Below are positions 51,895 to 63,497 of a DNA stretch of 64,000 bases, in pieces. Each line of letters begins with the position of its first letter. Within the stretch, counting starts at the first letter, position 1. Source of the stretch: Algoriphagus algorifonticola (GTDB lineage: Bacteria; Bacteroidota; Bacteroidia; Cytophagales; Cyclobacteriaceae); assembly GCF_007655305.1 (NCBI RefSeq), contig NZ_VLOG01000039.1, positions 62,001 to 126,000 on the forward strand, read 5' to 3'. The position numbers were made by a program, and so were the translations under genes. A model generated the notes under the pieces. It saw only the letters and a list, made by a program, of their open reading frames with translations, had not been told where the DNA came from and ran no database searches.

Positions 51895-52060
51895 GGATAT
51901 CCGCTTTCTTACCAGTAATAACAAGATACGGATTATTGTCTGATAAAAGGATCAGAATCCGGAAACTTCGCCTGCCTGCCGTGGCTGGGTCTTCGGTAAT
52001 CGGTCTTCCAATCGGTCAAACAAAGAAAATATGGCAACTGGCATGATTGCGGATAATTAG
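51895..52060 (-). repeat. Dispersed intergenic repeat, copy 2 (inverted relative to copy 1)
   Basis: Read on the minus strand this segment matches 26340-26493 throughout, except for an extra block (complement of about 51971-51990, GCCTGCCTGCCGTGGCTGGG) and fewer GACCGAW units. It fills the gap between the operon end and the hydrolase-OsmC gene. The frame of that gene runs into the repeat, which rules out a TTG start at 52047. Confidence 0.8.
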
Positions 52061-52073
52061 AAAAATAAATTTT

Positions 52074-53291
52074 ATGAATCCCAAATCCCTTACTTTTTCA
52101 AATAGCGATGGCATCAATCTTTCGGCTCACTTATATATGCCTTTAGATAGAGAGCCTAAATTTTATGCAATTTTTGCCCACTGTTTTACCTGTTCCAAAA
52201 ACTTCTCTGCCGTCAGTAGAATTTCCAAATCACTTTCTCAAGAAGGAGTAGCGGTTTTTAGCTTTGATTTTACCGGATTGGGAAGGAGTGAGGGAGATTT
52301 TGAAGACAGCACCTTCAGTTCCAATATCTCAGATTTGCTGGATGCTGCTGCTTTTTTAAAGGAGAATTATGAGGCTCCAAAAATGCTTATTGGTCATTCC
52401 TTAGGTGGTGCAGCAGTATTATATGCCTCTCCTCATTTGGAAGAGGTAAGTGCCGTGGTGACCTTGGGAGCTCCAGCTGATCCACTACATGTAAAGCATC
52501 TTTTTCAAAATAGTATTGAGGAAATAGAAGAGTCTGGAAAAGCCAAAGTTTTCATAGGAGGTCGTCCTTTTCAAATTAGCAGTCAGTTTGTCAAAGACCT
52601 CGAGAAGAAACCTATAGACAGCTTTCTGAAAAAATTAAAGAAGTCATTATTGATCCTTCACTCACCACAAGATGAGATTGTTGAAATCAAAAATGCTCAG
52701 ATGATTTATGAAGCTGCTTTTCATCCTAAATCATTTGTCTCTTTGGACGGGGCAGACCATTTGGTGTCCAAAACTGAAGACGCTGCCTACATCGGTCAGG
52801 TGATTGCTTCCTGGAGTAATCGTTATATTGAATCCAAGCAAGCAGTAGAGAATGACACCAAAGGTAATCCTGTGATGGTTCGCCTGAGTAAAAATCAAGG
52901 CTATACTACGGATGTTAAAACACCTTTTCATCATTTGATCGCAGATGAGCCAAAGGATGTGGGTGGCAATAATCTAGGACCTACCCCCTATGATTTATTG
53001 ATGGCTTCATTAGGGACATGCACTGCTATGACCTTGAAAATGTATGCAGAACGCAAAAAGTGGAACTTGGATGAGGTGAGAGTTTACTTAGATCATCAAA
53101 AAGTCCACAAAGAGGATAGTGAAAATCCCGATGAACCATCAGCCAAGGTGTCTCAATTTACCCGGGTGATAGAATTGGAAGGGGATTTGAATCAGAAGGA
53201 ACGGCAAAGATTGCTTGAAATAGCGAATCGATGCCCTGTTCACAGAACTTTAGAAGAAGATATTGTAATCCATACCGTACTCAGCAAGTGA
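52074..53291 (+). CDS. Alpha/beta hydrolase - OsmC fusion protein
   Basis: A 405-residue protein. Residues 1-250 are an alpha/beta hydrolase with the nucleophile elbow GHSLGG (S109) and the late GADH histidine. Residues about 265-405 form an OsmC-like peroxidase domain with the two redox cysteines in SLGTCTAMTLKM and NRCPVHRTLEED. The fusion is a known Bacteroidota and Proteobacteria arrangement; it may hydrolyse and detoxify lipid or organic peroxides. The ATG at 52074 is the start, since upstream sequence belongs to the dispersed repeat. The GH113-like gene begins 11 bp after its stop. Confidence 0.9.
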   Translation: MNPKSLTFSNSDGINLSAHLYMPLDREPKFYAIFAHCFTCSKNFSAVSRISKSLSQEGVAVFSFDFTGLGRSEGDFEDSTFSSNISDLLDAAAFLKENYEAPKMLIGHSLGGAAVLYASPHLEEVSAVVTLGAPADPLHVKHLFQNSIEEIEESGKAKVFIGGRPFQISSQFVKDLEKKPIDSFLKKLKKSLLILHSPQDEIVEIKNAQMIYEAAFHPKSFVSLDGADHLVSKTEDAAYIGQVIASWSNRYIESKQAVENDTKGNPVMVRLSKNQGYTTDVKTPFHHLIADEPKDVGGNNLGPTPYDLLMASLGTCTAMTLKMYAERKKWNLDEVRVYLDHQKVHKEDSENPDEPSAKVSQFTRVIELEGDLNQKERQRLLEIANRCPVHRTLEEDIVIHTVLSK

Positions 53292-54765: not shown

Positions 54766-56178
54766 ATGAAGAATAATCCCAGAAGAGAGTTTTTGAAATC
54801 CACAGGTCTTTTTGGATTAGGCTTGGTTGGTGCAGGGTCAGCTTTGGCACAGGAGTCTAAAATTTTACCTTTTGAGGCTCAATATGGAAAGCAAAGAAAC
54901 CAGGCTTTCAATATGTCTGGTTACGCTGCTCCCAAAATTGACACTGTGAGGGTGGGTATCGTGGGCTTAGGCATGCGTGGCCCTGGAGCTGTGGATAGGC
55001 TTAGTAAAATTCAGGGAGTTGAGATAAAAGCCCTTTGCGATCTTTTACCTGATCTTGTTGAAAAAGCGAAGGAAATGCTGAAGGGAACACCGCATCAGCC
55101 TATTTCCTACTCTGGAAATGTATATTCCTGGAAAGAAATGTGCGATCGGGAAGATTTAGATTTGATTTACATTGCTACACCATGGGAGTGGCATACACCT
55201 ATGGCAGTTTATGCCATGGAAGCTGGAAAACATGCGGCAGTTGAAGTCCCAGCTGCCAGAACTTTGGATGAATGTTGGCAGTTGGTAGAAACTTCTGAGA
55301 GAACAAAGAAGCATTGCATGCAATTGGAAAACTGCTGTTATGATTTCTTTGAACTGATGACTTTAAAAATGGCTCGTGAGGGATTTTTTGGAGAGGTTGT
55401 TCATGTGGAAGGCGCCTATATTCATGATTTGCTTTGGTTGAACTTTGACAAAGACAAAGGCTACCAGAATATGTGGAGACTACGGGAAAATTACAGAGAT
55501 GGAAATCTTTATCCTACCCATGGTCTAGGTCCAGTTTGCCAGATTCTTAATATCAACCGTGGAGATCAAATGGATTATTTAACTTCATTGAGTTCTAATG
55601 ATTTCCAGATGAAAAAGAAAGCTGAAGAGTTGGCTCAAGAGGATCTTTTCTGGGCTGAATTTGCATCTAAAAATTACCGAGGGAATATGAACACAACCAT
55701 GGTAAAGACGAAGCATGGTAAATCAATCATGATTCAGCACGATGTAACCTCACCAAGACCATACAGTAGATTACATGTGGTAAGCGGAACAGAGGGATAT
55801 GCACAAAAGTACCCTCAACCTAGAGTTTCCAAAGGTCATGCATGGATGAAGGAGGAAGAGATGAAAGAATTGGAGAAAAAATACACTCCTGAGATTGTTC
55901 AGAAAGTGGGTGAATTAGCGAAAAAAGTAGGGGGCCACGGAGGAATGGACTTTATGATGGATTGGAGACTAATTGATTGTTTGAGAAATGGATTGCCATT
56001 GGATCAAGATGTATATGACGCGGCACTTTGGAGCTGTATCAGTCCATTAAGTGAGTGGTCTGTGGCCAATAGATCCAATTCCATTGATGTTCCAGATTTT
56101 ACGGGTGGAAGTTGGAAAACCAATGAGCCAGTTAAAATAACTTTAGAAGGAGGGGGAAATACCCAAGTGCGGGTTTAA
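54766..56178 (+). CDS. Gfo/Idh/MocA-family oxidoreductase, GH109-like, Tat-exported
   Basis: A 470-residue protein with a twin-arginine signal (NPRREFLKSTG, arginines 6-7; cleavage after ALA near 28). The Rossmann motif VGIVGLGMRGPGA follows near residue 63, then YIATPWEWHTPMA and the ENCCYDFFELMTLKM segment. These match the GH109 alpha-N-acetylgalactosaminidase group, which uses tightly bound NAD in hydrolysis. The substrate is inferred from family only. It is convergent with the giant kinase/cyclase gene, overlapping by 4 nt at the stops. Confidence 0.88.
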   Translation: MKNNPRREFLKSTGLFGLGLVGAGSALAQESKILPFEAQYGKQRNQAFNMSGYAAPKIDTVRVGIVGLGMRGPGAVDRLSKIQGVEIKALCDLLPDLVEKAKEMLKGTPHQPISYSGNVYSWKEMCDREDLDLIYIATPWEWHTPMAVYAMEAGKHAAVEVPAARTLDECWQLVETSERTKKHCMQLENCCYDFFELMTLKMAREGFFGEVVHVEGAYIHDLLWLNFDKDKGYQNMWRLRENYRDGNLYPTHGLGPVCQILNINRGDQMDYLTSLSSNDFQMKKKAEELAQEDLFWAEFASKNYRGNMNTTMVKTKHGKSIMIQHDVTSPRPYSRLHVVSGTEGYAQKYPQPRVSKGHAWMKEEEMKELEKKYTPEIVQKVGELAKKVGGHGGMDFMMDWRLIDCLRNGLPLDQDVYDAALWSCISPLSEWSVANRSNSIDVPDFTGGSWKTNEPVKITLEGGGNTQVRV

Positions 56179-59100
56179 GTTTCCACATGACCTTGAGTAC
56201 GGGGATGGTTGACAAAATACATGTTCATCATCCCCTTATTTTTTACATCTATTTCACCTCTAAATTCACATGCGTAGGTATTTTTGATCTCATTGAAAAA
56301 GTCCTCGGAGACATTGATTTTGCCAGTTTCAGAGTTACTCTCCATTCTCGAGGCGATATTGACAGTATCTCCCCATATGTCATAGGCAAACTTTTTGTGC
56401 CCAACTACACCTGCTACAACAGGACCCAAGTGAATACCTATGCGGATCTGAAATACAGGTTTGTTATGCAATCTACTTTTTTCATTGTATTGATCAGTGA
56501 ATTTTAAAATATCCCTTGCAGCTTCTAATATGCGCAGCGCATGGTCCTCGCTTGGGATAGGAATACCTCCTGCTGCCATGTATGCATCTCCTATGGTTTT
56601 GATTTTTTCCAATCCGTATTCATCCATAATCTCATCAAAACGAGTGAAGAACACTTGGAGATTTTGAACCAATTCATCCGGACTCAACCTTTGAGCTATT
56701 CTTGTGAAGTCTTTGATATCCACGAACATGACTGAGACTTTTTCATACAGTCTTGCAGAGGCTTTGCCTGTTTTAATCAGTTCTGTTGCTATTTCTTTTG
56801 GAAGAATATTGAGCAAAAGGGCATCACTTTTTTGTTTCTCTTCTTCTAATTCCCTTGTTCTCTCCTGAACCAACTTTTCCATATTCTCATAGAGCAAAGC
56901 ATTCTCAATGATTCCTCCGATTTGAGCAGCCATCAATCTCATCAAAGAGATTTGATTTTTTGAGAAAGCATTTTTTGTCAGAGAGTGAGTTAGGTAAATG
57001 ATACCTGAAATCTTAGACTGATTGATAAAAGGAATACACAGAATTGATTTTAGCCTTTTGGACTTTACAATTTCATCGGAATCAAAAGGTTTGGTTGTAA
57101 ATGCATCTTCAATCAATAGAGGCTCTTTACTCGCTTTAGCATAATTGATTATTGCGGGACTGACTGCTTCAGTTTCATCCAGATCCTCTTTAGGAAAATG
57201 GGTGTGAAGTTGGTGGTTTGCCATGGTTGACACCTCCAAAATCCACTTTCCATCCCGATTGATAAGAAAATGTCCTTCCTGTGCGCCGGTATTTTCCATG
57301 GCATAGGTAATTAGCTTTTCCAGGAGAGCTTCTAATTTGATTTCACTCACCAGTGCTTCCATGGTCTTCACCAGGGTTTGAGTGTCAATTTGTCCAATTT
57401 CTGTGGATGAGCTTGAAAATTCGTAGCGACTGGCTTTAGAGGAAGTGGAATCGTCCTCTTCATGAAGAAGGAAAATGGACTTTGACACACACCCAATTCT
57501 TTTCGCCTCTGCAGCTGCCTGATTACTCCAATATTCAGACTTAGGATTCTTTTCTTTTTTGAAAAATTGACTGATCAACTCAGCAAACAGGATGTAATAT
57601 CGAGTATGCTTTAATTCCTTTAAATTTTCTGCACTTACCTCCAGCTTTTCATAATCCAACTGCTTGGTTTCATAATACTCTAAACTTGCCTCAAAAATAT
57701 TCAAGTAAGGAGTGTAGCAGACTGGGTTAAGTTTGGAAAGTGATTTTAGGTCATCAATGGTTTCCTTAATCATTGCCTTTAAATCAGAATCCCGGAAAGT
57801 GGAACTTCCAATCTGAAACATCAGAAATACCGCATTGAGGCCACTGTTTATATTGTAATAATGGATAAAAAATGAAGTGGGTTGGTCTTTGCTATGTCTT
57901 GGCAATTTGTCAAAGTAATCGAATGCTTCGCTATACTTGCCAAAAAACATCAGGGTAGAACCTATATAACCATAATAAGACATCAGAAAAATATGATTGG
58001 TCTCTTTTAAGGCGATTTTATAGTTGTCCTCCAGCTTTCTTGGTAATTCTTTCAGTGCCTCGTTGATATTTTTACTTTCTTCCAAATAAACTGCCAGGCA
58101 TTTTTCGATTATTTGGGTGATTGCCGCCTGATTGGCAAAGTTATATTGGATGGCAAACTTTTCTGTTTCCATTGCCTCCTTATGCTGGGCTTCGTAATCA
58201 TCACCGACATGAAACTTCAGTGCTGTTCCGAAAAATAAATTCCAGCAGGCATACTCCATATTTCCATATTCCAGCCCCTTCAAATATCCCTCATAGGTTA
58301 AAGGAACACTGTCTACGATGTTCTTTTTGATATGGGAGGTAAATGAGACATACATCATATTGATGGTTGCCGCGTACTTCATTCTTTCCGGACGGGTAAG
58401 GAGTTCCATGGAGTTTTTTACCACCTCATATCCGTCTGATGGCTTTTTAAGGGCAGTTGTCAAGATCAATCCGTAGGAAGCTATTCCAATTACCGATTCA
58501 GGCCCCATTCCTTTTTTCAGAGTAAGTTGAATCATTTGGAAAATTAGAAGCGGATAAGTTGATATGTTGACGAAAAAGTAGGAAGACAGGGATGCCAATA
58601 AGAGCTTGAATGTAGCAAGCGCCAAAGGATCTGTGGCCTCAGGAATGTCTTTAATTTTACTCAGTTTCTTCCTTGGGAGTAATAATTGGATTTTGATAGC
58701 ATGGAAAATAACCTGGATTTTGGATGCTTTATCCGGGATGTGGATTCCAACTTCTTTCAGTGCAACTTGGGCAACTTCAACAGCTTTTTTGGGTAAATTA
58801 GCGAAACCCAAGCATCTTACAATCACTTCATTGACCAATACTCGCTTGACTTGGTCATCCGCTATCTGAAATGCTAATTTTTCAAATTTTGCCTGCTTCA
58901 CTGGGTCCCTTAGAAGATATGAGTACTCCAGTGCGCCTAAGTAGAGTTCAAATTTCTCCTCATTACCCAGCTTATCATCCAATAACTCAATTCCTTTCTC
59001 GGTAAAGCTTAAAGCTCCTTCAAATGAGGCTGATTGAGCAGATTTTCTTCCCGAATCCAATAAGAGCCAGCCGATTTGTTCCTTGTTTTTGGCTTTCAAT

Positions 59101-61301
59101 ACCTCCTTGTACCCAATGGAAAAATGAAGCCCGATTTCAATAGGTTTCTGGGCAATTTCTGATTGAGAAAGTTTATTTAAATAAATCTGACCAACTTCAA
59201 AATGAAATTTACTTTCTTCAGTTTCCTCTAATAATGCATAGACAGCTTGCTGAATTCTTGCATGTGCAAAGCGAAAACGTATGTCTTTATTGGTTTCTCC
59301 ATAGTATTCTGGAATATACTTATAATCATTCCCAACAGGAATCAATGAGCCTTCCTGAATTAATGGCCATAAATATTGGTGAATCTGGGTCATATGCTGC
59401 CCGGTGATCAGGGATAACTGAAAAAGAGAAAACTCCATCCCAAAAACAGAGGCAACTTTTATAACTTGAAGTGCTTCCTCTGGTAATTCCCGAATTCTTA
59501 AAAGCAATAAATCGACAATATCTTCACTAAGGTTTTGGGCATTGATTGTTCTTATATCCCAAGTCCATTTATTACTGTCATAGTCAAATTCTAAGAGCTT
59601 TTTGATATAAAGCGATTCTAAAAATTTATTCAATGAAAAGGGATTTCCCTTGGTTTTAGAATAGATCAGTTCCGCAAGACTGGCTACTTCCAGTGACTCC
59701 AATTTTAGGGTGTCGGATATGAGCGCTCCCACATGATTCAAGCTCAATGGGGCCAAATGCAGCTCTTTGATAATCAGATAGTCCTCATCCAGATTATTGG
59801 ACTTGATGGATTTGATGGCTTGGGTGAATGGATGGAATTCATTGGTTTCATTATCCCGATAAGCCACTAAAATCATCACATGAGAGAGACTATAATTATT
59901 GAATAAACTTTTCAATAATTCTATAGAAGCATCATTGGCCCATTGGTAATCATCTAAGAATAATACCAGGGGAGTATCTTCTGATGCTAAACTTTGCAAA
60001 AAAGCATTAATCGTAAATTGTATCCTTTGTTGGTTTTCATAACCAGTCAAGTTTACCAATTGAGGTTGAGGGGGAAGAATATGCTTCAGATTGGGAGCCA
60101 TTTCCAAAATGATTTGTCCCAAACCCTTCAAATCTTTATTGAGCTTTTTTGCCCAATGAGCCTGCACCTCTGTAGTTTCTACCAAAAGCCACTCAGCAAA
60201 TTGCCGAAAGGCTTTAACAAAGGCTAAATAGGGGGTTTGCCTATCCAAAACATCAAATGCTCCGGATAAGAAAAGTCCATTTTTCACCGAACTCTCTTTG
60301 TATAATTCCTGTGAAAGAACGCTTTTTCCTACTCCGCTAAAGCCACCAATTGTCATTAAGACTTTCTTTCCCTCACAAGCAAGTTTAAAATGCTTTGATA
60401 GCTCTTTGATTTCTTTTTCTCTCCCGTATAGCTTCTGAGAAATATGAAGTTTAGAGGCAATATCAGTGAGACCCGGCTCGAATTCAGGTATTTTTCCTGA
60501 AGCCTTCCAATTTTCTAAAGCGAAATTTAGATCTGCCAATAAACCAGGTATGGACTGATACCGTTCTTCTGCATTTTTTTCCAAAAGCTTGAGTACTATT
60601 TTGTCCAAAGCCTCTGGTATGTCCTTATTTATTTGACTAGGCGGTACAGGATTGATTGCAAGGTGACAATGAATCATAGCCAAAAGGTCCGAGCCCACGA
60701 AAGGAGGCTGGGAGGTAAGCATTTCATAAAAAGTAGCCCCCAAAGCATAGTAATCACTCCTTTGGTCCAATTTCCTATTCATTCTCCCCGTTTGCTCTGG
60801 AGATATGTATTCTATCGTTCCGGAAATTGTAGATAATGGCTCGTATTGTAATTCTATATTTTCAATAGAGGACCCAAATTCATAATCGATTAACTGACAG
60901 GCAGAAAGGTCTTCAGCTACAATGATATTTTTTGGATTAAGATCATTGTGAAGTGCTCCTTTGGAATGTAAATCCTGAACTTCATGACATAGTTTGATTG
61001 CCAATTCCAGAAAGCTTTTTGTGTCAAGTGATCCTTTTTCGAGTGCTTCTTTTAAGGTACTTCCTGGGATGAATTCTCGAACCATTACCACTCGGCCATT
61101 ATAAAGAATTACCTGAGAATTGACTTCATTATGACTGGATCTACCGGAAATCATAGCCTCATTATGAAGTCTGCCCAAATCGCCGGTTAGATCTTCTTTT
61201 AGCAAGATGGTGTCACCAGATTCACTTTGACCTGTAAAAAGTTTACTCCTATGGCTTTCATAGTGCAGTTTTAACTGTTGTATTTGAGGGATTTCTTTCA
61301 C
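56175..61301 (-). CDS. Multidomain signalling protein: kinase, AAA ATPase, GAF, adenylate cyclase
   Basis: A 1708-residue cytoplasmic protein. Residues 1-265 are a Ser/Thr-kinase-like domain (HND at 118-120, N125, D139 in DYEFG; the glycine loop is poor). Residues 290-500 are an AAA ATPase (Walker A GGFSGVGKS 319-327; Walker B LVLFLDD 445-451). A long helical TPR-like region follows to about 1290, then a GAF domain (about 1320-1465), a coiled coil, and a class III cyclase (1522-1700). The cyclase keeps metal Asp 1528 and 1572, adenine-selecting K1568 and D1641, and N1648/R1652, so it should make cAMP. It starts 3 bp after the carotenoid oxygenase gene. Confidence 0.9.
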   Translation of the reverse strand: MKEIPQIQQLKLHYESHRSKLFTGQSESGDTILLKEDLTGDLGRLHNEAMISGRSSHNEVNSQVILYNGRVVMVREFIPGSTLKEALEKGSLDTKSFLELAIKLCHEVQDLHSKGALHNDLNPKNIIVAEDLSACQLIDYEFGSSIENIELQYEPLSTISGTIEYISPEQTGRMNRKLDQRSDYYALGATFYEMLTSQPPFVGSDLLAMIHCHLAINPVPPSQINKDIPEALDKIVLKLLEKNAEERYQSIPGLLADLNFALENWKASGKIPEFEPGLTDIASKLHISQKLYGREKEIKELSKHFKLACEGKKVLMTIGGFSGVGKSVLSQELYKESSVKNGLFLSGAFDVLDRQTPYLAFVKAFRQFAEWLLVETTEVQAHWAKKLNKDLKGLGQIILEMAPNLKHILPPQPQLVNLTGYENQQRIQFTINAFLQSLASEDTPLVLFLDDYQWANDASIELLKSLFNNYSLSHVMILVAYRDNETNEFHPFTQAIKSIKSNNLDEDYLIIKELHLAPLSLNHVGALISDTLKLESLEVASLAELIYSKTKGNPFSLNKFLESLYIKKLLEFDYDSNKWTWDIRTINAQNLSEDIVDLLLLRIRELPEEALQVIKVASVFGMEFSLFQLSLITGQHMTQIHQYLWPLIQEGSLIPVGNDYKYIPEYYGETNKDIRFRFAHARIQQAVYALLEETEESKFHFEVGQIYLNKLSQSEIAQKPIEIGLHFSIGYKEVLKAKNKEQIGWLLLDSGRKSAQSASFEGALSFTEKGIELLDDKLGNEEKFELYLGALEYSYLLRDPVKQAKFEKLAFQIADDQVKRVLVNEVIVRCLGFANLPKKAVEVAQVALKEVGIHIPDKASKIQVIFHAIKIQLLLPRKKLSKIKDIPEATDPLALATFKLLLASLSSYFFVNISTYPLLIFQMIQLTLKKGMGPESVIGIASYGLILTTALKKPSDGYEVVKNSMELLTRPERMKYAATINMMYVSFTSHIKKNIVDSVPLTYEGYLKGLEYGNMEYACWNLFFGTALKFHVGDDYEAQHKEAMETEKFAIQYNFANQAAITQIIEKCLAVYLEESKNINEALKELPRKLEDNYKIALKETNHIFLMSYYGYIGSTLMFFGKYSEAFDYFDKLPRHSKDQPTSFFIHYYNINSGLNAVFLMFQIGSSTFRDSDLKAMIKETIDDLKSLSKLNPVCYTPYLNIFEASLEYYETKQLDYEKLEVSAENLKELKHTRYYILFAELISQFFKKEKNPKSEYWSNQAAAEAKRIGCVSKSIFLLHEEDDSTSSKASRYEFSSSSTEIGQIDTQTLVKTMEALVSEIKLEALLEKLITYAMENTGAQEGHFLINRDGKWILEVSTMANHQLHTHFPKEDLDETEAVSPAIINYAKASKEPLLIEDAFTTKPFDSDEIVKSKRLKSILCIPFINQSKISGIIYLTHSLTKNAFSKNQISLMRLMAAQIGGIIENALLYENMEKLVQERTRELEEEKQKSDALLLNILPKEIATELIKTGKASARLYEKVSVMFVDIKDFTRIAQRLSPDELVQNLQVFFTRFDEIMDEYGLEKIKTIGDAYMAAGGIPIPSEDHALRILEAARDILKFTDQYNEKSRLHNKPVFQIRIGIHLGPVVAGVVGHKKFAYDIWGDTVNIASRMESNSETGKINVSEDFFNEIKNTYACEFRGEIDVKNKGMMNMYFVNHPRTQGHVET

Positions 61302-61304
61302 TTT

Positions 61305-63497
61305 TTATTCAAAATGTGGATAGATATTTTTTTCGAAAAAGTCTTCCAGAAATTTAGTATCGGCTTTGATTTTTATGCCTTGGATTACTTCTCCATAATC
61401 CTCCCTAACCGGGATTTTATAGCTTTGATCTGTGGTAGATGCCTCAGGCATCCAAGAAGTATGAAGCGTAAAACTAAATTTCACTTCTTCGTTTTTCATT
61501 TTGCAAATTGGACCCTTTGAGATCGAAGTGGCATCAAAGACCCAAAATTCACTGCTATAAGTCCAGCCACCTTCGGGAATTTCAGTTCCTACCTGAACCG
61601 GGCAAAATAAATAGCCATCTAATTCTTCTGGAATACTTGGGTCAGGAGTTTTGCGGGGAATAAAATGAACCCCTCTTATATAAGTTTTTTTGGCACATTG
61701 ATAATAATCTTCAGTCTCCATGGTCTCGAGATTTACTCGAGTAATACTGAATGGCAATTCTCTCTTAGTTGCCTCTTTGATGTCATCCAGAGAAAGATCC
61801 CGATGCGGATAATCCTTGTAAAGATTATAAACAAATTTGGTGAGCAAGTTTGAGTCAGTACCATCACTGACATACCAAAATTGTTTAATGGTCGGTACTA
61901 CCTTGTCTGCAGAAAGAATATCTCTATAGGTATAAAGCACGATAGTCCAGGTATTTGGGCCTATCACATCTTCTTTCCACTTTCCAGGTTCTTCTAATAC
62001 TTTGCTTTTTTCCTCTAACACCTCCAGTGAATTGCTATCAATTCTCCACTTTCCCAGTCTACTAATATCCATACTGCCTACTGCGAATAGTGAGTAGTAA
62101 TTAGGATCGACAGGCTTGTTGTCCAAAGCTCTTTTATCGAAAGTTCTAACCCATTCAGCGATACAAGTTGCAGCATTATGAACTCCGTAAAGAGTGATAA
62201 CTCCATCTGGATTTGCATAATCGCAGCTGTAATGGATAGTTTCCAAAGGAATCGGCTCTTTCAGTCTATAAGCAGTCAGTTTTTCTTTGGAAGGATCCAT
62301 ATCTTTCCTTTTGACAAGGTAGACAGTGGTAAAGGCTTCCATTTTTACAGTGCTTAAACGTCTTATCAACCTTTCTATCACCTTGCTTTCCGGGAATGGA
62401 TTATCAAAAAGTAGGTCCATCGCAAACTTAAAAGAGCAATCTGTTAGAATGATAAAATCCTCGGTGATTCCCAATTGATGCATGCATTCATAAATGGCCA
62501 GTTTATCCCCAGTCTGGTCTTCAAGTTCCCAGCGCTTCATAGGACCGTTGCCATCCCATGCAAGTAAAAACATGAATACATCTCCTTTTGGCTCATCATT
62601 GTCATGAGGTTTTCCATCGACGTGATGATTTAGGTTGGTGAAAAAACCTTTCACTTCTTCATTCACATGATCGTGGTCGGGATGATCAACCAGTTTATGC
62701 GCCAGAGCTTCTAACTTATCTTTAAAAGACTCTTTATTATGCCTTAAATGATGAATAGTTTGCTCCATGTGAGTAAAGGAACCTTTATCTCTGGAGTAAT
62801 TGACGGTGTAAACCTCCTTGGTAAGCGGATCAAATACGGGGTGCGCTGAGGTTTGGGCAATTCCAAAAGGCCAAGGAACCATGGGGGGCTCCGCGGTCAT
62901 CCATTCAGTGCTTTTGCCCATTGGGGTAATAATTTCCAGACTTTTGGGATCCAGTAAATAGGGCCTTCCAACATCATAGGTGGCCATCAAACTTCCCTGT
63001 TTCTGCCCATTGAATTTGACAGGCTGAGTAGCTGTGTTCAGTTCGTTTCTAGAGCCGAAAACCATACTCATTCTAGTGATTCCCATATTATGGAAACCCA
63101 TCAATCCATGATGTTTAGTCCCTTGTTTTGTTGCTTCATCTGCATAAAAACAAGGTGTTTTCATCAATTTGGTCTTAACCTCTGGGCTTGATTGGTTCAG
63201 ATTGACCTGAATAACCATACCGTCTCCATTCATTATAGGTGAACCAAATTCGGGATTATTCTTTCCTTCTTCTGTTTTTTCCGGGAAAGGAAGGCCTTCG
63301 GAGTTAACTGTTCCTACAGGAAGTGAAACATGAAAAACCCCAAAAATATTCGCTGGAAGTTTCCCTTCAATTATCTTTAATTCACCAGTGATTTCTTTCC
63401 TTGAAGCTTTCAATAAGGGTTCACCTTGAATCGCCTTTATTTCAGAATTTTTCTTAAAAAAATTCAAAATGGCATTCCATGTCTTTTTCAAAATCAT
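61305..63497 (-). CDS. Carotenoid oxygenase family protein (large form)
   Basis: A 730-residue protein of the carotenoid cleavage dioxygenase/RPE65 family, longer than the usual 470-550 residues. Candidate iron-ligand histidines are H219 (TSAHPVFDP), one in TIHHLRH or nearby, one in ETIHYSCDYANPDG and the final H679 (FTLHTSWMP); the second is uncertain. Acidic residues and a propeller-like strand pattern fit the fold. It should cleave a carotenoid or a related alkene such as a stilbene. The order is oxygenase first, then the kinase/cyclase gene 3 bp later, so they form an operon. Confidence 0.85.
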   Translation of the reverse strand: MILKKTWNAILNFFKKNSEIKAIQGEPLLKASRKEITGELKIIEGKLPANIFGVFHVSLPVGTVNSEGLPFPEKTEEGKNNPEFGSPIMNGDGMVIQVNLNQSSPEVKTKLMKTPCFYADEATKQGTKHHGLMGFHNMGITRMSMVFGSRNELNTATQPVKFNGQKQGSLMATYDVGRPYLLDPKSLEIITPMGKSTEWMTAEPPMVPWPFGIAQTSAHPVFDPLTKEVYTVNYSRDKGSFTHMEQTIHHLRHNKESFKDKLEALAHKLVDHPDHDHVNEEVKGFFTNLNHHVDGKPHDNDEPKGDVFMFLLAWDGNGPMKRWELEDQTGDKLAIYECMHQLGITEDFIILTDCSFKFAMDLLFDNPFPESKVIERLIRRLSTVKMEAFTTVYLVKRKDMDPSKEKLTAYRLKEPIPLETIHYSCDYANPDGVITLYGVHNAATCIAEWVRTFDKRALDNKPVDPNYYSLFAVGSMDISRLGKWRIDSNSLEVLEEKSKVLEEPGKWKEDVIGPNTWTIVLYTYRDILSADKVVPTIKQFWYVSDGTDSNLLTKFVYNLYKDYPHRDLSLDDIKEATKRELPFSITRVNLETMETEDYYQCAKKTYIRGVHFIPRKTPDPSIPEELDGYLFCPVQVGTEIPEGGWTYSSEFWVFDATSISKGPICKMKNEEVKFSFTLHTSWMPEASTTDQSYKIPVREDYGEVIQGIKIKADTKFLEDFFEKNIYPHFE

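Follow-up and report, generated by a model that had tools for sequence, protein, structure and literature searches.

In animal retinoid signalling, an enzyme of the RPE65/BCO type supplies the ligand for a cyclic-nucleotide-linked receptor. To our knowledge, it is unclear what most carotenoid-type oxygenases and lipoxygenases of bacteria do outside photosynthesis and rhodopsins. In the 64,000-nucleotide stretch of Algoriphagus DNA analysed here (the window), a gene for a long oxygenase related by sequence to RPE65 is followed by the gene of a giant receptor-like protein. We observed a conserved, modular association of this divergent oxygenase family with receptor proteins, and a signalling role can be tested directly, since the genes are tightly linked to those of receptors that have a cyclase or phosphatase output. 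An earlier note on this DNA had placed the oxygenase gene 3 bp from that of a 1708-amino-acid (aa) kinase/ATPase/GAF/cyclase protein; the open reading frames (ORFs) and the Pfam matches agreed with this description.

The window oxygenase has the Pfam family and the four iron-ligand histidines of the carotenoid cleavage oxygenases (a superfamily that includes RPE65, ACO, NinaB, and lignostilbene dioxygenases), and its structure model tentatively suggests their seven-bladed propeller fold; it differs in being longer and in scoring far under the lignostilbene NCBIfam cut-offs. The present case differs from animal retinoid signalling in that the receptor is a STAND protein here and another membrane protein elsewhere, the latter with no sign of an opsin-like lysine. 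The giant protein resembles the TOMM kinase/cyclase fusion (TIGR03903), whose model it matched in three stretches, best in the ATPase region, and which, by its name, also combines a kinase and a cyclase in one chain. Its score (148.2 bits), however, was below the cut-off of that model (705.75), and here a GAF domain and a carotenoid-type oxygenase gene are found.

In the oxylipin-dependent quorum sensing (ODS) of Pseudomonas aeruginosa, the diol synthase operon adjoins the gene for the oxylipin receptor (PMC6377657). The likeness lies in lipid-oxidising enzymes being encoded beside the receptor of the product; here, adjacency of the oxygenase gene and a receptor-type gene was conserved (13/13 close relatives and 18/36 loci of the wider family). 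The ODS receptor is a LysR-type transcription regulator and the enzymes are diol synthases, whereas the partner here is a kinase/ATPase/GAF/cyclase protein. No such oxygenase-receptor pairing was described in the titles and beginnings of abstracts that made up the literature covered, in which subscription journals were largely outside. In a review of carotenoid cleavage oxygenases in microbes (PMC5133782), the terms operon and physiological role were absent, and kinase and gene cluster occurred only in a plant passage and in the reference list.

Conservation of the pairing

Both genes were retained in 13 of 13 close relatives, with identities of 65–99% for the oxygenase and 47–99% for the giant partner; the relatedness search for the pair returned close relatives only, and two of the 13 loci were cut by contig ends. 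The possibility, raised in the earlier note, that orthologues of the oxygenase would usually lack this neighbour was therefore not borne out among close orthologues. With mechanically chosen starts, the gap between oxygenase and partner was at most 9 bp, and at the other extreme the genes overlapped by 4 bp; at the Aquiflexum locus the pair was retained although the surrounding ORFs differed in size and strand. Because the pair was conserved among close relatives, chance pairing was excluded, and the pairing of the oxygenase with the giant protein was confirmed as real. The spacing of the two genes would suggest their co-transcription; a conserved promoter upstream of the pair was not supported, an alignment of eight upstream regions having two invariant columns. 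The window oxygenase was 99% identical to the copy of A. ornithinivorans, and the source genome is an Algoriphagus near that species.

Across the order, the long oxygenase was found in 34 of 291 genomes (4 of 12 in the own genus). The comparison covered 36 loci from 33 of these 34 genomes (the window, G218, G050, and 33 further regions), G218 and G050 probably being A. ornithinivorans and A. kandeliae from among the 13 close relatives; the G157 locus, a fragment of the oxygenase at the end of a contig, was left out of this count. A receptor-type neighbour was present at 18 of the 36 loci, being a kinase-ATPase-GAF protein at 13 and a membrane-domain protein at 5. Beside the oxygenase, a cyclase output was found in G000, G218, G050, G156 (L073), and G229 (L071), and a SpoIIE output in the remaining 13; these classes were assigned mostly from profiles of Pfam-called segments, with some of the classified proteins among the sources of the profiles. 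The 18 loci include three (L064, L067, and L075) with genes split over several ORFs, possibly by frameshifts or assembly errors: the oxygenase in three ORFs and the partner in two at L075, the oxygenase in two at L067, and the partner at L064. In G014, the partner was upstream of two tandem oxygenases.

The membrane-type partners (L056, L066, L067, L068, and L071) had a shared membrane domain, with six membrane segments by our own count by eye, fused to SpoIIE or a cyclase. Pfam scans of L056 and L071 showed no GAF domain, no kinase, and no match in the membrane domain; the three other proteins had the same size and layout. The PDB gave no match to the six-segment domain at E values up to 1. 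A profile of the domain matched 21 places in 18 of the 291 genomes, and the best seven, in five genomes, were oxygenase loci, a ranking that is biased because the profile was built from six of its seven best places. The only invariant lysine in six sequences of the domain sits, as we read the segments, past the last hydrophobic one, so that we saw no sign of an opsin-like chromophore lysine.

Beyond the order, the oxygenase profile (395 Bacteroidota genomes, E 1e-40) detected three further genomes, and signalling neighbours were present at all three loci. At L151, a kinase-like/ATPase/GAF/cyclase/HD protein was encoded 3 bp downstream of the oxygenase; at L152, a kinase-ATPase-GAF-histidine kinase followed after 106 bp; and at L153, the oxygenase gene lay between a response-regulator histidine kinase on the upstream side and a 7TMR-DISM histidine kinase on the downstream side. 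Three outputs were thus seen beside the long-oxygenase family: cyclase, SpoIIE phosphatase, and histidine kinase.

Partner classes were clustered on the oxygenase tree (43 rows; L075 left out, and L067 represented by its longer piece), with 16 changes for all classes, including the "none" and SpoIIAA-like ones, against a shuffled mean of 26.3. The label of the cyclase-type kinase partner changed three times and that of the SpoIIE type five times, gain being indistinguishable from loss. In the partner tree (quick LG+G4 search, without L064 and L075), long branches may have been drawn together (L073, L151) and only the shallow groups were used; those of oxygenase-linked partners mirrored the oxygenase tree, as in L062/L063 and L069/L070. 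At L107 (G178), an intact kinase-ATPase-GAF partner adjoined a 151-aa oxygenase remnant that reads as an internal deletion, possibly a recent loss or an assembly error.

Kinase-type neighbours were far more frequent than expected: 13 were observed at the 36 loci against a rough expectation of about 0.35, taken from first-look counts of kinase-type genes per genome (assumed to be 20 for G070). On the same expectation, five pairings would have a probability of about 3e-5, the 36 loci not being independent. As a control set, 12 ordinary-length RPE65 genes from 157 genomes of the order were used, 11 of whose loci were compared; these partly belong to the same genera (G047 and G102; G103, G142, and G154), and two, L158 and L163, start near a contig start with one side hardly visible. 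At none of the 11 loci did a nearby ORF match the giant protein or the profiles of SpoIIE, cyclase, or six-segment domain (histidine kinases were not looked for). The twelfth gene (G091, L109) was clustered with a paralogue of the giant protein, an FAD (flavin adenine dinucleotide) oxidoreductase gene and an opposite-strand gene lying between. Fisher's test against the long-oxygenase loci, with kinship ignored, gave P = 0.003 for 18/36 vs. 0/11 and P = 0.016 for 18/36 vs. 1/12. In G047 and G102, which hold both long and ordinary oxygenases, only the long one was paired; in G141, which also holds both, neither was.

Directly after the unpaired oxygenases of L048, L053, L054, L055, and L057, small proteins of about 134–151 aa are encoded that read as SpoIIAA/STAS-like; at L053, a row of three 138-aa ORFs and one 161-aa ORF follows. 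Three of the small proteins were scanned and gave one PF11964 match (E 0.009, below the cut-off), a tentative assignment for which they were not counted as receptors.

Domain structure of the two proteins

The gene pair has the following features; the iron-ligand counts are over 43 long-oxygenase sequences, with that of the window included.

61305..63497, reverse strand: oxygenase gene, first of the pair; open ORF of 730 aa with a PF03055 match
62841..62843, reverse strand: His219, predicted iron ligand (AHP motif); kept in 41/43; aligns with the TAHP of solved relatives
62478..62480, reverse strand: His340, predicted iron ligand (MHQ.G.T motif); kept in 42/43; aligns with the MH motif of solved relatives
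62232..62234, reverse strand: His422, predicted iron ligand; kept in 42/43; outside the alignments with solved relatives
61461..61463, reverse strand: His679, predicted iron ligand; kept in 42/43; aligns with the LH..W motif of solved relatives
61302..61304, reverse strand: intergenic gap between both genes, 3 bp by the ORF boundaries
56175..61301, reverse strand: giant receptor-like gene; open ORF of 1708 aa, start codon GTG; kinase, STAND-type ATPase, uncharacterised region, GAF, and class III adenylate cyclase
60558..61169, reverse strand: protein kinase domain, residues 45–248; PF00069, 82.6 bits; HNDLNPKN and IDYE motifs present
59871..60434, reverse strand: AAA_16 (STAND-like) ATPase, residues 290–477; PF13191, 94.6 bits; Walker A GFSGVGKS, Walker B LFLDDYQW
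57402..59870, reverse strand: residues 478–1300, candidate sensor; no Pfam match; least conserved part
56913..57335, reverse strand: GAF domain, residues 1323–1463; PF01590, 36.8 bits, cut-off 22.4
56208..56753, reverse strand: class III cyclase domain, residues 1517–1698; PF00211, 186.7 bits; LEKIKTIGD and YDIWGDTVN motifs

By its sequence, the window oxygenase belongs to the carotenoid cleavage oxygenase superfamily, within which it is divergent. The RPE65 family model (PF03055) scored 102.3 bits (cut-off 27), and the protein was approximately 190 residues longer than the model across the matched stretch; most of its relatives have about 710–790 aa, and the ordinary-length RPE65 genes of the order encode 473–511 aa. 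The cut-offs of the lignostilbene dioxygenase NCBIfam models were not reached (NF053778, 37.8 bits vs. 800; NF053780, 40.2 vs. 650). A single-sequence PDB search gave no match at E 0.01, and a profile of 33 oxygenases matched four distinct chains. Their molecule names and titles indicate stilbene/aromatic dioxygenases, LSD4 and NOV1 among them, and one is deposited as "carotenoid oxygenase". With the AF2 model (13 sequences; mean pLDDT 66, pTM 0.74), Foldseek returned LSD4, ACO, NOV1, and NinaB (best E 1e-16, TMt about 0.6), and all of the 50 matches listed belong to the carotenoid cleavage oxygenase family as far as their titles tell.

In the giant protein, all Pfam domain matches were at or above their own cut-offs, that of an HNOBA-like linker (residues 1471–1508) being exactly at it; no DNA-binding domain was found by Pfam. 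By its PF00211 match and its Lys/Asp residues, the C-terminal domain is a predicted class III adenylate cyclase, LEKIKTIGD and YDIWGDTVN carrying the Lys/Asp pair typical of adenylate cyclases. The suggestion in the earlier note that the cyclase reports through cyclic AMP (cAMP) is consistent with these residues, and for the oxygenase family as a whole it is too narrow, cAMP being only one of its three outputs. Between the ATPase and the GAF domain, Pfam gave no match to residues 478–1300 up to E 0.01; by analogy, this may be a STAND/TPR-like helical region. Among 12 close sequences, 17% of its columns were invariant, compared with 29–64% in the other parts and most (45–64%) in the GAF domain, linker, and cyclase. 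The model of the GAF-cyclase part was poor (pTM 0.45). Elsewhere in the source genome, the kinase-ATPase part had no further match, and two other proteins matched the cyclase only.

The GAF domain had been proposed as the site that binds an apocarotenoid. The scanned membrane-type partners (L056 and L071) lack it, and the window GAF was 25–29% identical to distant oxygenase-linked GAFs (L061, L069, L073, L151, and L152) and 25–34% identical to GAFs beside other enzymes. Identity among oxygenase-linked GAFs was 61–74% within the clade of the pair and 25–29% outside it, with no closer grouping, and a role of the GAF domain as a dedicated apocarotenoid site is not supported.

Paralogues of the giant protein and lipoxygenase loci

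Fifteen paralogues of the giant protein were taken from the top of the candidate list, chosen blind to their neighbours; 13 were of the cyclase type (L109–L121). A lipoxygenase gene adjoined the giant cyclase paralogue at L110, L112, and L113, and at L115 it was one gene away on the opposite strand. Lipoxygenases (PF00305) were found in 6 of the 291 genomes of the order, and a similar receptor was encoded beside them (L110, L112, L113, and L168) or one gene off (L115) in 5 of the 6. These receptors were STAND-kinase-cyclase proteins (L110, L112, L113, and L115) or a 7TMR-DISM-SpoIIE protein (L168, where the lipoxygenase was 15 bp upstream); the lipoxygenase of L167 was without such a direct receptor neighbour.

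Other enzymes were found as well. At L117–L121, in five genomes, a DyP peroxidase gene and a catalase-like gene were upstream of the paralogue (only L117 was scanned, DyP being assigned by Pfam and the catalase-like protein by reading), and the catalase-like protein of L117 ended in a Pfam lipid-transport/polyketide-cyclase domain. The paralogue of L109 was near the ordinary-length RPE65 gene with its FAD oxidoreductase, and that of L111 was near an FAD amine-oxidase-like gene on the opposite strand. No such enzyme was recognised among the neighbours at L122 and L123, the other two of the 15. In a further 20 paralogue loci with short flanks (L089–L108), oxygenase genes stood beside the paralogue at L096 and L108, which are the L073 and L061 loci again. 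A weak FAD-oxidoreductase match was beside the paralogue at L089/L090, with a P450-like ORF (by reading) on the opposite side; a catalase-like gene was near it at L097 and an amine-oxidase-like fragment (by reading) at L103; response regulators (by reading) were near it at L099–L101 and L104; and the rest, apart from L107 with its oxygenase remnant, had mixed genes. Because paralogues stand near peroxidase, lipoxygenase, and FAD-enzyme genes and near mixed genes, the receptor family is not exclusive to oxygenases.

At L114 and L116, two further proteins (599 and 520 aa) are encoded after the giant cyclase paralogue, and neither of the two at L114 matched Pfam. The genome G218, probably that of A. 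ornithinivorans, carries this second giant-cyclase unit.

Proposed mechanism and rival explanations

The reading we favour, with a confidence that falls somewhat short of even, is an enzyme-receptor unit in which the product of the oxygenase is sensed by the co-encoded receptor. A presumably cytoplasmic non-haem-iron oxygenase would cleave a carotenoid, another isoprenoid, or related conjugated alkene; the cleavage product would be sensed by the co-encoded STAND-type multidomain protein, whose ATPase and adjoining region would then switch the C-terminal adenylate cyclase, with a change in cAMP. In relatives, the same oxygenase family would be wired to kinase-ATPase-GAF proteins whose last domain is a histidine kinase or a phosphatase of the SpoIIE type, and also to membrane-domain SpoIIE/cyclase proteins and a 7TMR-DISM histidine kinase. 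This reading builds on the conserved pairing, on inputs and outputs that are swapped among relatives, and on the retained catalytic residues. A small molecule as the shared factor would predict that the enzyme stays constant while receptors and outputs change, as observed; we infer that the product acts as ligand at a binding site of the receptor, in the direction from enzyme to receptor. If true, the unit would be a bacterial counterpart of retinoid and oxylipin hormone signalling, and the repeated pairing of distant oxygenase cousins with signalling proteins of other designs suggests a candidate for hormone-like signalling in bacteria.

A wider "oxidised-lipid hormone" class in Bacteroidota is a more doubtful, although conceivable, extension. 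Dioxygenases that cut or peroxidise polyenes would each be encoded with a dedicated receptor; the enzymes would be the long carotenoid-type oxygenases and the lipoxygenases; and inputs (STAND, six-segment membrane domain, and 7TMR-DISM) and outputs (cAMP, SpoIIE partner-switching, and histidine kinase) would have been exchanged in evolution.

Several observations weigh against the enzyme-receptor unit. The conservation that the earlier note had looked for stood at half of the loci of the wider family, and the other half (18/36) had no receptor-type neighbour; five of the unpaired loci carried only the small SpoIIAA-like protein (by reading). Fourteen of the 21 places with the six-segment domain lie outside oxygenase loci. 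The order is rich in such kinase-ATPase proteins (as many as 54 first-look candidates in one genome), and relatives of the giant protein also adjoin DyP peroxidases, catalase-like proteins, FAD oxidoreductases, and unrelated genes, the peroxidase-like neighbours pointing to oxidative stress as an alternative theme. The solved relatives found with the oxygenase profile are stilbene/aromatic dioxygenases. The earlier note had remarked that such Bacteroidota are often carotenoid-pigmented, and carotenoid synthesis is plausible in the source genome, where two CrtI-family genes scored over the cut-off; CrtI was found in 36/37 oxygenase-bearing and 28/29 other genomes (66 searched), and because it is nearly universal in both groups, carotenoid synthesis is no discriminating marker, and CrtI was rejected as a co-occurrence marker for the oxygenase.

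The oxidative-stress theme fits a reverse direction, which we regard as unlikely and still as the strongest of the alternatives. The giant protein would sense stress (oxidants, light, or membrane state) and the oxygenase would be one of its effectors, switched by phosphorylation or cAMP-dependent regulation so that carotenoids or oxidised lipids are consumed or remodelled. Relatives of the giant protein adjoin not only oxygenases but also peroxidase-like and catalase-like genes, as in an oxidative-stress module, and the kinase motifs are present in the window protein. In the oxygenase-linked cyclase partners of L073 and L151, however, the catalytic aspartate of the kinase is replaced and the cyclase residues are retained, so that the constant activity is that of the cyclase and not that of the kinase. 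Because the scanned membrane-type partners have no kinase, phosphorylation is not a general means of controlling the oxygenase.

A housekeeping role is improbable. Here a carotenoid- or aromatic-degrading enzyme would share its regulation with a general cyclase receptor, with no direct link between the two molecules, as the wider loci with other neighbours in place of a partner would allow; that pairing with receptor architectures recurs in several separate parts of the tree argues against it, as does the lack of pairing at the 11 ordinary-length RPE65 loci. The tight pairing and the divergence of the family from known enzymes would also fit an oxygenase-like protein that serves as the non-enzymatic sensor subunit of a complex, but the iron-ligand histidines are kept in 41–42 of 43 sequences, and the only one to have lost all four (L076) comes from a locus without a receptor-type neighbour, which makes this very improbable. 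Least probable of all is a defence or conflict system with the STAND ATPase, kinase, and cyclase as sensor and the oxygenase as effector: a STAND-like ATPase, the patchy distribution (34/291 genomes), and PADLOC matches of the kinase and cyclase segments (PD-T4-6 and PycC) are in its favour, but these matches were at the domain level only (best 25 of 40), the oxygenase matched none, and a known anti-phage system was rejected for want of a specific PADLOC match of both proteins, no search for other phage-defence genes in the window having been made.

As for the surroundings of the pair in the window, 175 bp separate the end of the 5′ neighbouring ORF from the start of the oxygenase, and the 3′ neighbouring ORF is convergent to the giant gene and overlaps its end by 4 bp. 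Farther away, the ORF at 52047–53291 reads, from its translation, as a fusion of an alpha/beta hydrolase with an OsmC-like domain.

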